This document shows, one piece after another, positions 6,125-11,809 of a DNA stretch of 51,117 nt (the stretch's first letter is position 1; every line of letters starts with the position of its first letter). The position numbers and the translations under genes were made by a program. Below the pieces are notes generated by a model. It made no database searches and was not told the origin of the DNA. It saw nothing but the letters and a program-made list of their open reading frames with translations. Location: assembly GCA_013178155.1 (NCBI GenBank), contig JABLXH010000027.1, forward strand, positions 1-51,117. Reading direction: 5' to 3'. This DNA comes from Armatimonadota bacterium (GTDB taxonomy: Bacteria > Armatimonadota > Zipacnadia > Zipacnadales > UBA11051).

Positions 6125-6173
6125 CAACTGCATCCTCCCGATCCGCCGAGTCTGGGTCTGGCGGGCAGTCAGG

Positions 6174-6203
6174 ATTATAGGCCACGGGAAGAGAGCCTGT
6201 CAA
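6174..6203 (-). promoter_or_regulatory. Consensus sigma70-type promoter for the MocA operon
   Basis: On the minus strand TTGACA (6198-6203) and TATAAT (6174-6179) are separated by 18 bases; both hexamers match the consensus exactly. Transcription would begin near 6167, giving a leader of about 43 bases before the oxidoreductase ATG at 6124. It also lies downstream of the ProRS-like gene and so separates that long run from the MocA group. Confidence 0.85.
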
Positions 6204-6319
6204 CGAAACGCCGTGCTAAGGTCTTGTTCCGGTGGTTCCACACGGCCCGAGGGGACACTGAAGAGTACGGGCAGCACCAGAGCCGCGTCAGTTGGCGGCC
6301 AGGGGCCAACGCGCGCACA

Positions 6320-8029
6320 TCAACCGGATAGGAACTCCGAGACTACAGAAACGACATCGCTCAGCGTGGCAGTAGCTTCAAGCCCGCCCGACCGTCGCCG
6401 GACCTCAACGACTCCATCCTGCGCCAGTCGCTTGCCGACGACGATGACCACAGGGTACCCGACCAGGTCCGCCTGGTAGAACTTGGTCCCTGGCCGAATG
6501 TCTCGGTCGTCCAGCAGGACGTCTCGGCCGGCCTCCCGCAGTTGCCCATAGAGGCCCTCGGCTGCACTGACCTGAGAGGGGGACTGCTTGTCCAGAAGCA
6601 GGATCGCCACCTCGAAGGGGGCAACCTGTCGCGGCCAGGCGATTCCCCCGCTGTCGTGGTGCTGCTCGACCACCGCGCAAATGCACCCCACGAGGTCAAC
6701 GCTGCACAGACCGAGCAGGACCGGTCTGCTCAGACCTTCAGTGTCGGCGTAATTCACATCCAGCGCTGTCGCCGTCGCAGGCGGGAACATCTCAGCCCTC
6801 GCCAGCTCGGCGGTCACCACAGCGTCCAGGGCACTCTCTGCACAGACCGGGCACAAGTCTCCCTCGCCAGCCAAGCGCAGGTCCATGACCTCGTCAGGCA
6901 CAAAGTCGCGCCCCACTGCTGCATGCACCAGGTGCATGTCGGTCCTGTTCGCCCCCAGGACGCAATCATGCATGCCAGCAACCTCGTGATCCGCTATCAC
7001 TGCCACGTCCTTGGGCAGGCCTAAGGGTCCACTGAACCCCACCTCAGCACCCGTCAGGTCCCGGATCTCGTCCGGCACGGCAAGACGAAGGCTAGCGGCT
7101 CCCAGAGCTCGGCGCAGCTTGGTCTCGCTGAGCTGACGATCACCCCGAACCAGGGCGGCCACGAAGGTATCGTCGCAGCGGTAGATCAGGGTCTTGACCA
7201 GTGTGTCAGGCGTCGTCGCCAGTTGCGCGCAGACGGCCTGAACCGTGCGGGCACCGGGTGTTTCAACCAGTTGTAGGGCGGGCTGAGCAGCACTCGCGGG
7301 CGGTGTCTCAGGGGCCCGCACCACGCAGTCATGCGGTGACGCGGTGTGGCCGCAGCGTGAACAGTGAAGCACGACTTGTCTGCCATCGGCTGACGGCGTA
7401 AGTATGCGCCTTTGGGTGGTCTCCTGTGCGCTCACCTCGGTGACGTAGAGCGATGCCGCGTCGAGGCCCAGTTTCACCAGAGCCCGGTGTATCCCGACGC
7501 AGACATCCGAGACAGACTGCTCCTGACCGCGGCGCGTCGCATCCATAGTGCAGACGTCGAGCCACGGAGACTCTCCACGGTGCACCCCTTCTGGCGCCGA
7601 GCCTCCGCCACTGGAGACCACTGGACCAACCCCAAAGAACCGCCTGGGCAAGTCGCGGTAGGAAGTGATGCCACAACCCACCACAACCGCCAGGAGAGAC
7701 CCATAGCGAGGATACACGACGAGGTCACGCTGACGAGAGTCACGAGCTACGACTTCACCGGGGCGATCGGCGATGGTCGCAGCGAATGCCTCCCAGGTCT
7801 CCAGGGGGACAAGACCAGGGAACACCACCTCCAGCGCCCCCGCGCTCACCATCTCAGCCCGAAAGATGCTCAGCATCCGGCAAAGAACGCGACAGCCCAG
7901 CGGCAACAGCATAGAGCCGCTTGCCAGGCGACCGAGGAAGCCCCCGCGAGTCAGGAGCTTCTCCACTTCACCCCGGGCCTCAGGGGGTGCATCCTTCGAG
8001 CTTGGCGCGTAGAAAGCAGTCGCTCGCAC
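6320..8029 (-). CDS. ProRS homologue lacking class II catalytic motifs
   Basis: A 569-residue protein collinear with bacterial-type prolyl-tRNA synthetase over its full length, in the usual proS position after ispG. Editing (INS) domain residues 252-382 keep LVKTL with Lys279, LVRGD (294-298) and the GLP/GAN loop. The anticodon-binding domain (468-569) keeps LLDDRD and RPGTKF. The aminoacylation centre does not survive: the GPTHEE loop is YPRYGS (106-111), the arginine-rich motif 2 region (134-160) is Gly/Ser/Val-rich, and the GCYGIGVTR motif 3 is GLCSVDLVG (440-448). The alignment stays in one frame, so this is substitution rather than a frameshift. GTG start with AGGAG 8 bases upstream. It probably cannot charge tRNA; a role in trans-editing of mischarged tRNA-Pro or in regulation is inference. 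Confidence 0.85.
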   Translation of the reverse strand: MRATAFYAPSSKDAPPEARGEVEKLLTRGGFLGRLASGSMLLPLGCRVLCRMLSIFRAEMVSAGALEVVFPGLVPLETWEAFAATIADRPGEVVARDSRQRDLVVYPRYGSLLAVVVGCGITSYRDLPRRFFGVGPVVSSGGGSAPEGVHRGESPWLDVCTMDATRRGQEQSVSDVCVGIHRALVKLGLDAASLYVTEVSAQETTQRRILTPSADGRQVVLHCSRCGHTASPHDCVVRAPETPPASAAQPALQLVETPGARTVQAVCAQLATTPDTLVKTLIYRCDDTFVAALVRGDRQLSETKLRRALGAASLRLAVPDEIRDLTGAEVGFSGPLGLPKDVAVIADHEVAGMHDCVLGANRTDMHLVHAAVGRDFVPDEVMDLRLAGEGDLCPVCAESALDAVVTAELARAEMFPPATATALDVNYADTEGLSRPVLLGLCSVDLVGCICAVVEQHHDSGGIAWPRQVAPFEVAILLLDKQSPSQVSAAEGLYGQLREAGRDVLLDDRDIRPGTKFYQADLVGYPVVIVVGKRLAQDGVVEVRRRSGGLEATATLSDVVSVVSEFLSG

Positions 8030-8088: not shown

Positions 8089-9204
8089 CTATCGCTCTTC
8101 GCTCACGCTGCGGACCTCGTCCATCAGCGCGCTCAAGGCCTCGTCAATGGGGATGGTTCGCAGCCGCTCGCCTCGGCGAAACAGCGTGGCCTGGCCACGA
8201 CCTGCCGCCAGGCCGACATCGGCTTCCCGGGCCTCGCCCGGACCGTTCACCTCGCAGCCCATGACCGCAACCACGATGGGCGCATCAACAGCCAACAGTT
8301 CCCGTTGGACGGCCTCTGCCAACGACCTCACATCGGCCTGACACCGCCCGCACGTCGGGCAGGAGACCAGTCGAGGACCGGCCAGCAGCCCCATGGCCAC
8401 CAGCAGGCTACGCCCCACGCGCACCTCACCGACGGGGTCGCCGGTGATGGAAACGCGCAAGGTGTCCCCCAGCCCCTCGGCCAGCAAGATGCCAGCCGCC
8501 GCTGACGAACTGGCAATGGCCGCCTCGCCCACGCCGGCCTCTGTGACACCGATGTGTAGGGGGTAATCGGTCTCACGAGCAAAGAGGCGATTGGCAAGCA
8601 CCGTGCGTCGGATGTCGGAGGCCTTTATCGAGACCACGATGTTCGAGAAGCCGAGGCGTTCCATGCGCGCGACGCTGTGCAGGGCACTCACCGCCGCTGC
8701 CTCCGCGGTCGGTCCACCGTACTTGTCCAGCAGGGTGCCCTCCAGCGACCCAGCGTTGACTCCCACTCTTATCGGGACCCCACGCTCGGCAGCAGCCTCG
8801 ACAACTGCGCCCAGGCGGTCATCACCGCCAATGTTGCCAGGGTTGATCCGGATCTTGTCAGCCCCTGCCTTCAGCGCCGCGATGGCCAGACGGTAATCGA
8901 AGTGGATGTCAGCTACCAGTGGCACGCCAACCTGTTGCCTTATCTCCGCGAAAGCAGCGGCCCCCCGCCGGTTGGGGACCGCCAACCTCACAATGTCTGC
9001 GCCGGCGGCAGTGACTGAACGGATCTGCGCCACCGTGCCGGGGACATCCAGGGGATCCGTCTTTGCCATCGTCTGCACGGTGATGGGAGCTCCGCCGCCG
9101 ATGGTAAGGCACCCTACCTGAACACGACGGGTGGGTCGTCGGGGCCATGGGACAGCCGGAAGCGGGCTGTCGGTCGGGATCGGCGCTGGCCGTTTGCCAC
9201 TCAT
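8089..9204 (-). CDS. ispG: 4-hydroxy-3-methylbut-2-enyl diphosphate synthase
   Basis: IspG (GcpE), 371 residues, the penultimate enzyme of the MEP isoprenoid pathway. It converts MEcPP to HMBPP using a [4Fe-4S] cluster. The N-terminal TIM barrel shows QTMAKTDPLDV, ADIHFD and KIRINPGNIG. The C-terminal cluster domain has SCPTCGRC and GCEVNGPGEA, which supply the three cluster cysteines and the Glu. An upstream in-frame ATG at 9231 overlaps rseP and has no ribosome-binding site, whereas GAGG lies 8 bases before the ATG at 9204. It sits between rseP and the ProRS-like gene, an arrangement found in many bacteria, with ispC two genes upstream. Confidence 0.95.
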   Translation of the reverse strand: MSGKRPAPIPTDSPLPAVPWPRRPTRRVQVGCLTIGGGAPITVQTMAKTDPLDVPGTVAQIRSVTAAGADIVRLAVPNRRGAAAFAEIRQQVGVPLVADIHFDYRLAIAALKAGADKIRINPGNIGGDDRLGAVVEAAAERGVPIRVGVNAGSLEGTLLDKYGGPTAEAAAVSALHSVARMERLGFSNIVVSIKASDIRRTVLANRLFARETDYPLHIGVTEAGVGEAAIASSSAAAGILLAEGLGDTLRVSITGDPVGEVRVGRSLLVAMGLLAGPRLVSCPTCGRCQADVRSLAEAVQRELLAVDAPIVVAVMGCEVNGPGEAREADVGLAAGRGQATLFRRGERLRTIPIDEALSALMDEVRSVSEER

Positions 9205-9217
9205 CTGTCGCGCCTCG

Positions 9218-10624
9218 TCAGGGCGTTCCATAGCGCAACAGGTTCGCTAGGTCCTTGGAAGTGAGCGCAACGAACATGACGAGAACCAGTACGAATCCAC
9301 CGATGCTCAGGGCCCATTCCAGTTTGGGGTAGACCCGTCTGCGTATGATTGCCTCACAACCCAGAAGGACCAGCCGAAAGCCATCGAAGGGGGGAATCGG
9401 AAACAGGTTCACCACCGCGAGGATCGCGCTGACCATTCCTCCCCAGTTTAGCACGGCGTCCCATCCGACCTTCGCCTTCTCGGCGCTGATGGCCATGATC
9501 GCCACCGGCCCCGCCAGCTCGGCCTCCACCTCGCGACGCAACATCAGTCGGACCGACTCTACGACGACCAAGGCGCTCTCCAGGGACCGCACCAGCCCAG
9601 CGGTCACGGCCTCACCCAGCCCCGCCGGTCTCATCGCCGGACGCAGAACGACGCCAATCCGCCCTGACGGCCGGATGCGTGAGTAGAGCGCCCCTGTCTC
9701 ATCACGCAGACCGACGCGTACGTTCACCGGTTTGGGCACCATCTCCAGCTCGATCCGTTGCCCCGCGCGAAGCAAAGATAGGCGGACCGGCTTGTTGGGG
9801 CGATTGCCCACATATCCCACCAGAGACGACTGCGTCAAGGGCTCGAAGGTGAGTCCGAGAGTCCGCTGCAAGGTCTCGGTGGCATTCCCTGCCGGTGCCC
9901 TGGAAAGCTCTGCGGGCGGACGCAGACTCACGATGCGCTGCTGTTTGCCGATGTCAGGTATGGAGTAGTCCACGGCGGCGACCTTCACATCGCCTGACTT
10001 GGCCCCGCGCAATGCCTGAAGCAGCTCCGAGGGCAGGTAGATCTCCTGGCCGCCAGCCCGCTCCAGTACTTCACCCTCCCTCAGCCCGGCCCTGTCAGCC
10101 GGAGACCCCGGTTTCACCTCGCGGATCTGCAACGAGTGGCTGATGCCGTCGACAGCCAGGACTCTGTCACCCGCCTGTATGCCGGCGGTTTCTGCGGGGC
10201 TTTGAGGGATGACCTTCGAGACGTAGATACCGCTGTCGGCCGGGTCGGGGAGGCCCGTCCACAAGGTGACGGCTGAGAAAAGTCCCACGGCCAGCAACAG
10301 GTTCGCAGCACTCCCACCCACGAGCACAAGCGCGCCCTGCCAGCGAGGCCGGGAGTGAAACCCTCTCTCGACCACAGGCCCTCCCGGCTCCATTCCCGCT
10401 ACCTTGACATAGGCGCCATAGGGAATCAGGTTCAGCCGGTACCGCGTCTCCCCACGCCCGAAAGACACCAGAGCCTTGCCAAATCCGAGGGCGAACTCCT
10501 CCACTCGCATCCCAAAGAGCTTGGCCAGGAGGAAGTGGCCGAACTCGTGCAACAGGAGGCAGAGCCCGAAGACAACGACTATCGCAGCTACGCTATTGGC
10601 AACCCCGCCAACACCTTCAAGCAT
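9218..10624 (-). CDS. rseP: RseP-family site-2 zinc metalloprotease
   Basis: A 468-residue M50 intramembrane protease. HEFGH (26-30) in the first transmembrane segment supplies the zinc-binding histidines and catalytic Glu. The third ligand motif is in NLFPIPPFDGFRL near the C-terminus (Asp in FDG; the more usual LDG is changed to FDG). Between them lies a periplasmic region with two PDZ-like stretches, around APAGIQAGDRV-type and SPADRAGLREGE sequences (about 130-190), longer than in the single-PDZ forms. The family cleaves membrane-bound anti-sigma factors or remnant signal peptides. AGGGG lies 7 bases before the ATG. It follows ispC by 30 bp, as in many bacteria. Confidence 0.93.
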   Translation of the reverse strand: MLEGVGGVANSVAAIVVVFGLCLLLHEFGHFLLAKLFGMRVEEFALGFGKALVSFGRGETRYRLNLIPYGAYVKVAGMEPGGPVVERGFHSRPRWQGALVLVGGSAANLLLAVGLFSAVTLWTGLPDPADSGIYVSKVIPQSPAETAGIQAGDRVLAVDGISHSLQIREVKPGSPADRAGLREGEVLERAGGQEIYLPSELLQALRGAKSGDVKVAAVDYSIPDIGKQQRIVSLRPPAELSRAPAGNATETLQRTLGLTFEPLTQSSLVGYVGNRPNKPVRLSLLRAGQRIELEMVPKPVNVRVGLRDETGALYSRIRPSGRIGVVLRPAMRPAGLGEAVTAGLVRSLESALVVVESVRLMLRREVEAELAGPVAIMAISAEKAKVGWDAVLNWGGMVSAILAVVNLFPIPPFDGFRLVLLGCEAIIRRRVYPKLEWALSIGGFVLVLVMFVALTSKDLANLLRYGTP

Positions 10625-10654: not shown

Positions 10655-11809
10655 TCAGTCCAGGCGAGCACTGGCCATGACAAACTCCCGGGCCCACTCA
10701 TTCACTGCCAGAAAGTCGTCAAGGCAGTCTGGCTGTGCACCATTGTATGCTTCGAGAGCTCGCTCGAGAAGCCTCGGAATGTCGGTGAACGCGATCTGTC
10801 CGTCGAGAAACAGCTGCACCGCTGCTTCGTCTGCGCCATTTAGCACCGCCGGATAGCCCCCTCCCGAGATGCCCGCCTGGCGGGCTAGCCGCAGGCATGG
10901 GAACCGGTCCAGGTCAGGCTCATCGAAAGTCAGCGGCGACCCAGCTACCAGGTCCAGACGTGGCAACTCATTGCGGGCGCGATCGGGATACAGCAGGGCA
11001 TACTGGATCGGGACACGCATGTCCGGACATCCCAACTGGGCAAGCACTGAGGAGTCCTGAAACTCGACCAGCGAATGGACGATGCTCTGCCGATGGATCA
11101 CCACGTCAATGCAGTTGAAATCCACTCCAAAGAGCCAGTGCGTCTCGAATATCTCGAACCCCTTGTTGGCCAGGGTGGCCGAGTCGACCGTGACTTTGGC
11201 ACCCATCCGCCAGGTCGGGTGGGCCAGGGCCTGCTGGGGCGTCACTGCGGCCAGCTCCTGGGCCGTCAGAGCATGGAAAGGGCCCCCCGACGCTGTGAGC
11301 ACAATCCTTGCCACCGCATCCCTTGGCTGTCCCTGCAAGCACTGGAAGATGGCTGAGAGTTCGCTGTCCACGGGCAACAGCTTGGCCCCGGAAGCACGAG
11401 CCGCCTCTGTAACCAGACCTCCGGCCACTACCAGCGGTTCCTTGTTGGCGAGGGCAACATCCTTCCCAGCCTGGAGCGCGTCCATCAGGGGAACCAGCCC
11501 CGCGCTGCCGGATATAGCTCCGAGAACCAGGTCAGCCGCGGTCTCAGCGAGGAGATGACGCAGACCAACGGCGCCGGCGAGCACATGCACCCCATCGAGG
11601 TGGCGCGCCGCCTGCGCCGCTGCGTCGTGGTCCACGAGACAGCAGGTCTTCACACCGTAACGCTCGCATTGCTCCACCACCGTCTGCCAGTCGCGATGGG
11701 CAGCGAGGCCCGTCACTCTCAGGCGCTCCGGGTGGGCAGCAACCACCTCCAGGGCCTGACGCCCTATGGAGCCGCTGGATCCGAGAACCACAAGGCGCTT
11801 TGCCGCCAT
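10655..11809 (-). CDS. ispC: 1-deoxy-D-xylulose-5-phosphate reductoisomerase
   Basis: IspC/Dxr, 384 residues, the committed step of the MEP pathway, converting DXP to MEP with NADPH and a divalent metal. The N-terminal nucleotide-binding motif is VLGSSGSIGRQAL. The metal and substrate region shows LLPVDSELSAIFQ (catalytic Asp and Glu) and the conserved KVTVDSATLANKGFEIFE and IHRQSIVHS segments are intact. Length is typical. With ispG two genes downstream, the window supplies two of the seven MEP steps. The start lies 5 bp after the stop of the preceding cupin gene, so they are probably in one transcript. Confidence 0.96.
   Translation of the reverse strand: MAAKRLVVLGSSGSIGRQALEVVAAHPERLRVTGLAAHRDWQTVVEQCERYGVKTCCLVDHDAAAQAARHLDGVHVLAGAVGLRHLLAETAADLVLGAISGSAGLVPLMDALQAGKDVALANKEPLVVAGGLVTEAARASGAKLLPVDSELSAIFQCLQGQPRDAVARIVLTASGGPFHALTAQELAAVTPQQALAHPTWRMGAKVTVDSATLANKGFEIFETHWLFGVDFNCIDVVIHRQSIVHSLVEFQDSSVLAQLGCPDMRVPIQYALLYPDRARNELPRLDLVAGSPLTFDEPDLDRFPCLRLARQAGISGGGYPAVLNGADEAAVQLFLDGQIAFTDIPRLLERALEAYNGAQPDCLDDFLAVNEWAREFVMASARLD

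Follow-up and report, generated by a model that had tools for sequence, protein, structure and literature searches.

What does a prolyl-tRNA synthetase (ProRS) do once the residues with which it would charge tRNA are gone? The question is raised by a gene in a window of 51,117 nucleotides (the whole stretch of DNA analysed here, from a draft genome of an Armatimonadota bacterium), which a sequence-only reading had described as a ProRS with an erased aminoacylation centre and a preserved editing domain. The gene starts with GTG and stays open for 569 codons on the minus strand with no internal stop, an event with a chance of 3e-7 in random sequence of the same composition, and its GC content by codon position is gene-like over the whole frame. 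The end-to-end alignment with bacterial ProRS that had been claimed was borne out by NCBIfam models, which match over the full length and far under their cut-offs (NF006625, 308 bits vs 558; TIGR00409, 223 bits vs 306.7). Pfam finds the tRNA_edit and anticodon domains only, with no DNA-binding or additional domain. The gene, its domains and its upstream neighbours, which we presume to be ispG, rseP and ispC, are arranged as follows.

6320..8029, minus strand: pseudo-ProRS, a full-length family II homologue of 569 aa without the aminoacylation site but with the editing and anticodon domains
7364..8029, minus strand: degenerate N-terminal catalytic part, residues 1-222
6824..7363, minus strand: INS editing domain and linkers, residues 223-402, intact (PF04073, 95.4 bits; pLDDT ~95)
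6647..6823, minus strand: degenerate C-terminal catalytic part, residues 403-461
6323..6646, minus strand: anticodon-binding domain, residues 462-569, intact (PF03129, 63.3 bits; 16/16 invariants kept)
8089-9231, minus strand: presumed ispG, from the ORF list
9218-10624, minus strand: presumed rseP, from the ORF list
10655-11809, minus strand: presumed ispC, from the ORF list

The gene order ispC-rseP-ispG-proS is thus as originally described, with a gap of ~60 bases between ispG and the pseudo-ProRS gene, and the neighbourhood is syntenic with three other loci from the phylum (L045, L072 and L075). Because a genome of the same family that encodes a normal ProRS (L045) shares the ispG-proS junction, we conclude that the pseudo-ProRS gene sits in the ancestral place. 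Its AlphaFold2 model (pLDDT 88) agrees over the full length with the bacterial ProRS structures 2j3l, 5znj and 8w8j (Foldseek TM 0.8-0.9), keeping fold and domain order, and a second model (pLDDT 92) likewise has the full-length ProRS fold. The window gene is known from a single draft genome of its genus (G000, 95.6% complete), which we count against our preferred explanation. No relatives closer than the same family were found; among genomes of named species the protein has a single distant relative, a normal ProRS from Nitrospinaceae, and its closer relatives came from our survey of the phylum.

Damage is concentrated where proline and ATP should bind. Across the N-terminal catalytic part the protein has a mean identity of 0.28 to normal ProRSs, compared with 0.57-0.74 among the normal enzymes. 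Residues are numbered as in E. coli ProRS, whose K279 and R144 agree with published numbering (PMC3973320 and PMC10164551).

7694..7711, minus strand: YPRYGS in place of the GPTHEE proline/ATP loop (residues 107-112, PRYGSL), from alignment to solved ProRSs
7541..7624, minus strand: former motif 2 and the following KDAYS strand, residues 136-163; K138, F139, R140, D141, E142 and R144 all changed
6683..6715, minus strand: former motif 3, GCYGIGVTR now GLCSVDLVG; R450G

The proline/ATP (TXE) loop carries T109R, H110Y, E111G and E112S, motif 2 carries K138V, F139V, R140S, D141S, E142G and R144G, and in motif 3 the loss of G445 and G447 accompanies R450G. These replacements, which the first inspection had already reported as leaving the frame intact, are visible also against the sequences of solved ProRSs, and since that alignment has no gaps around the GPTHEE and motif 3 lesions, realignment does not restore the ATP- and proline-binding residues there. 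The motif 2 loop (140-151) is the sole longer stretch of the structural model at pLDDT <50.

The rest of the protein is conserved as in working enzymes. Measured against 112 residues invariant across 12 functional family II ProRSs, pseudo-ProRS keeps 27/71 in the catalytic parts, 20/25 in INS and 16/16 in the anticodon-binding domain, a difference between the catalytic parts and the other two domains (36/41) that is highly significant (Fisher p = 1.7e-7) and agrees with the earlier claim that both domains, including Lys279, were preserved. The tRNA_edit match far exceeds its cut-off of 25.5 bits, and the INS residues retained are T257, P258, K279, R299-G300-D301, G339-P340, D350, G362-A363-N364 and H369, with three of them at the following positions.

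7193..7195, minus strand: Lys279, the invariant INS lysine
6989..6991, minus strand: Asp347 (E. coli D350), INS site
6932..6934, minus strand: His366 (E. coli H369), INS site

Two CxxC pairs (window 7352-7363 and 6842-6853) lie on either side of the INS domain. Their four cysteines, absent from E. coli ProRS, do not vary across a 32-protein alignment that includes degenerate members, and they likely form a zinc site where INS joins the rest of the protein, at its base.

A cell with such a protein at its proS locus must charge tRNA-Pro with another enzyme, as had been predicted, and the same genome encodes a complete archaeal-type (family I) ProRS (G000:C112:105163-106647; 497.6 bits vs a cut-off of 437) with intact motifs RPTSET, FLRTTEF and SWGVSTR. 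It shares 79-81% identity with the family I enzymes of two genomes of the same order (G014 and G016), in which the phylum survey found no family II gene. The tRNA-Pro genes recovered from the genome (TGG and GGG) both have C1:G72 and A73, the bacterial identity elements. Several relatives with family I ProRS alone have no INS homologue whatever, so Ala editing can be dispensed with in this phylum and would be useful rather than universal, a point that we also count against our preferred explanation. The genome also encodes a freestanding tRNA_edit protein of ~152 aa with a GAEPPFG motif (G000:C24:7682-8044, minus strand; L002, L043). It probably differs from the known trans-editing factor ProXp-ala, because the solved structure nearest to it is the uncharacterised 3op6 and it matches 1vki only weakly.

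We consider it quite probable, on the evidence of sequence, that pseudo-ProRS is the organism's original bacterial ProRS, displaced and demoted to a free trans-editing factor for Ala-tRNA-Pro. Under this proposal, the genome would have acquired the family I ProRS, which lacks INS and would now charge tRNA-Pro; the old enzyme, freed from selection for aminoacylation, would have lost its ATP, proline and acceptor-end residues, and selection would have retained the INS domain to hydrolyse Ala-tRNA-Pro together with the anticodon-binding domain as the source of the tRNA-Pro specificity missing from INS. The catalytic fold would persist as a scaffold and probably also as a dimer interface. Hydrolysis of Ala-tRNA-Pro is predicted because the INS active site is retained; that alanine is the substrate, that the protein dimerises and that events took this order we infer.

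Published biochemistry anticipates this division of parts. The INS domain of E. coli has no intrinsic recognition of tRNA-Pro and relies on the anticodon-binding domain for it; changes in the acceptor stem have almost no effect on its editing (PMC3973320). Motif 2 R144 contacts G72 in charging (PMC10164551). On these grounds, a former ProRS that only edits would be expected to retain INS and the anticodon domain and could lose its acceptor-end and ATP contacts. The kept and lost parts of pseudo-ProRS match this prediction.

The same architecture would also suit trans-editing of tRNA-Pro carrying something other than alanine, such as Cys, Ser, 2-aminobutyrate or a non-protein proline analogue. 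Deacylases of the INS superfamily do differ in amino acid specificity (PMC11295145), and the residues compared here are general INS site residues only. However, the window INS domain stands at 0.47 to ordinary Ala-editing INS domains, which stand at 0.43-0.60 among themselves (a closeness judged within about 5-10 percentage points), and H369 is kept, so we regard a different substrate as unlikely.

A survey of 291 genomes of the phylum for both ProRS types recovered the homologues that had been called for, with a dead catalytic core, intact INS and anticodon domains, and different lesions. A degenerate ProRS is fixed in another genus (g27, family f13), where nine species encode full-length proteins of 526-584 aa scoring 211-239 bits to TIGR00409; in a tenth species (G236) both ProRSs are represented only by pieces at contig edges. 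The f13 proteins have lost the entire GPTHEE loop and have a scrambled motif 2, but they retain the motif 3 arginine, K279, D350, H369 and nearly all anticodon-domain invariants. The third lineage, a single genome (G260), carries T109A, H110Q, E112G, R140C, E142D and R450C and also encodes a family I ProRS. Family I ProRS is present in the genomes of 10 of the 11 complete degenerate genes, including a complete copy in 8 of the 9 f13 species with a full-length degenerate gene; none was found in the fragmented draft assembly (93% complete) of G233, an f13 genome with the degenerate gene, and this exception too counts against our explanation.

Several other candidates were set aside, among them two low-scoring genes that are not full-length degenerate cases. 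The G247 gene lacks its N-terminal part in frame and keeps motifs 2 and 3, and that of G077 has a broken frame and keeps motif 2; the latter (L058, G077:C104, about 6172-7827) contains several stops and frame breaks, reflecting decay or assembly error, and no family I ProRS was found in its genome. Five genomes (G042, G146, G148, G264 and G265) encode both types of ProRS with the charging motifs largely or wholly retained, and were left uncounted. The family II copies of G042 (L072), G264 (L075) and G265 (L076) keep their main charging motifs and show a raised rate of change in the catalytic part, and those of G264 and G265 show odd changes, such as GMTHEE and an altered GGxxxxEF strand; it is possible that these three copies are early stages of such a demotion.

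The surroundings of the f13 genes differ from those in the window. Neither the f13 nor the G260 degenerate genes still adjoin ispG. In most f13 genomes the gene (L042, L050, L052, L054, L056) lies near a conserved pair, one member of which we take to be a PfkB-like sugar kinase and the other a protein starting TLPKWQLQ. The f13 genus has a freestanding tRNA_edit protein similar to that of G000, with the motif GAMPPFG.

A decaying pseudogene, drifting after displacement by the family I enzyme with an editing part that merely appears better conserved, would account for some of these observations. Loss of the catalytic site is expected in a redundant enzyme, other family I lineages have no family II gene at all, and the G077 copy is frame-broken. 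But drift would not erase the catalytic core and leave INS and the anticodon domain conserved, nor is it expected to leave a frame of 569 codons intact. All 171 pairs of normal ProRSs are more alike in the catalytic part than in the INS and anticodon part. The opposite holds for the window protein (0.27 catalytic vs 0.46 editing part) and for f13 (about 0.30 vs 0.43-0.45), and to a slight degree for G260 (0.45 vs 0.48). With the topology fixed from the editing-part tree, the ratio of catalytic to editing branch lengths reaches 3.7 on the window branch, the maximum of the tree, and 3.0 on the f13 stem, compared with <1.2 on most branches of normal enzymes. G260 (1.4), G042 and G264/G265 (1.2-1.4), whose genomes all have a family I ProRS as well, end in long branches on which the ratio is moderately raised.

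Decay is also at odds with the f13 genes, which are still full length at protein identities to the G048 copy as low as 60-66%. The dN/dS calculation suggested in the sequence-only reading gave ~0.2-0.3 in every domain for the two closest f13 pairs; in more distant pairs dS is too high to be reliable. From the values of the close pairs we conclude that purifying selection acts on the f13 degenerate proteins, remnant catalytic scaffold included, and that they are not decaying. We consider a pseudogene in the window very unlikely.

Degeneration appears to have occurred more than once. In the editing-part tree the window protein falls within its own order (support 98/97) and f13 outside that order. 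Forcing the two together is disfavoured, with a p-AU of 0.055 that is short of formal rejection and that we count against our explanation; forcing G260 together with f13 is not rejected (p-AU 0.33). Separate origins are further favoured because both lesions and loci differ between the lineages, making two origins likely and three possible.

Of the functions first envisaged for this protein, trans-editing fared better than a role like that of HisZ, because the hydrolytic residues of INS are kept and not tRNA-binding surfaces alone. A tRNA-Pro-binding regulator or structural partner without hydrolysis, whether HisZ-like or a subunit assembling with the family I enzyme, would explain the fully conserved anticodon-binding domain, and ThrRS paralogues can hetero-oligomerise, with one giving editing in trans (PMC4787780). 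Such a protein would have no need for K279, D350, H369 and the conserved INS loops, which are kept in all 11 degenerate proteins, and Pfam shows no DNA-binding or extra domain in pseudo-ProRS; we consider this role very unlikely. That the protein is still a ProRS with an unusual active site is scarcely credible: the overall fold is kept and f13 retains the motif 3 arginine, but the window protein has substitutions at every ATP- and proline-binding signature residue, f13 lacks the GPTHEE loop, and there is a complete family I ProRS alongside.

A trans-editing pseudo-ProRS would differ from each known system that it resembles. It shares ancestry, length, domain order, INS, anticodon domain and the ispG neighbour with bacterial family II ProRS, but is without the aminoacylation residues of the TXE loop, motif 2 and motif 3, and a different ProRS would do the charging. 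With ProXp-ala it shares the proposed reaction, the INS fold, the conserved lysine and use beside an INS-less ProRS; however, ProXp-ala has just one domain and reads C1:G72 and A73, whereas pseudo-ProRS has three domains in 569 aa and should read the anticodon. The ThrRS-ed of some archaea combines an editing and an anticodon domain and serves a separate charging enzyme (PMC7373986, PMC11295145), so that it too acts in trans beside an editing-less synthetase, a likeness drawn from sequence comparison only. It belongs to another synthetase and has an unrelated DTD-like editing fold, whereas the editing domain of pseudo-ProRS is PF04073, its degenerate catalytic domain is kept and its partner is of foreign type. 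Pseudo-ProRS belongs with neither ProXp-ala nor ThrRS-ed, being a full-length ProRS whose catalytic domain is dead. HisZ and other pseudo-synthetases are likewise synthetase paralogues without aminoacylation, but HisZ serves histidine biosynthesis and has no editing domain, whereas pseudo-ProRS retains an editing site. In the Anabaena ThrRS pair T1/T2 one synthetase edits for the other, as proposed here, but T1 is an active synthetase when zinc is sufficient, and pseudo-ProRS would have lost charging for good.

To our knowledge, ProRS-related trans-editing factors have been described as single domains. Consistent with the earlier assertion that no full-length ProRS of this kind had been described, searches of open-access full texts found no inactive, pseudoenzyme or editing-only ProRS, which is not proof of absence. 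We lean toward a broader generalization, that displacement by an editing-less foreign synthetase repeatedly turns the resident enzyme into a full-length trans-editing factor, two to three independent times in this phylum, giving a class of multi-domain tRNA-Pro proofreaders that read the anticodon. If this is true, a displaced synthetase whose charging site is disabled can become a trans-editing factor, and the need for an anticodon-binding domain is explained where the editing domain cannot discriminate tRNAs. The case also offers a natural way to test whether INS takes its specificity from the anticodon-binding domain. Annotation pipelines likely label such genes 'proline--tRNA ligase', and some genomes counted as having two ProRSs may hold one synthetase and one proofreader.
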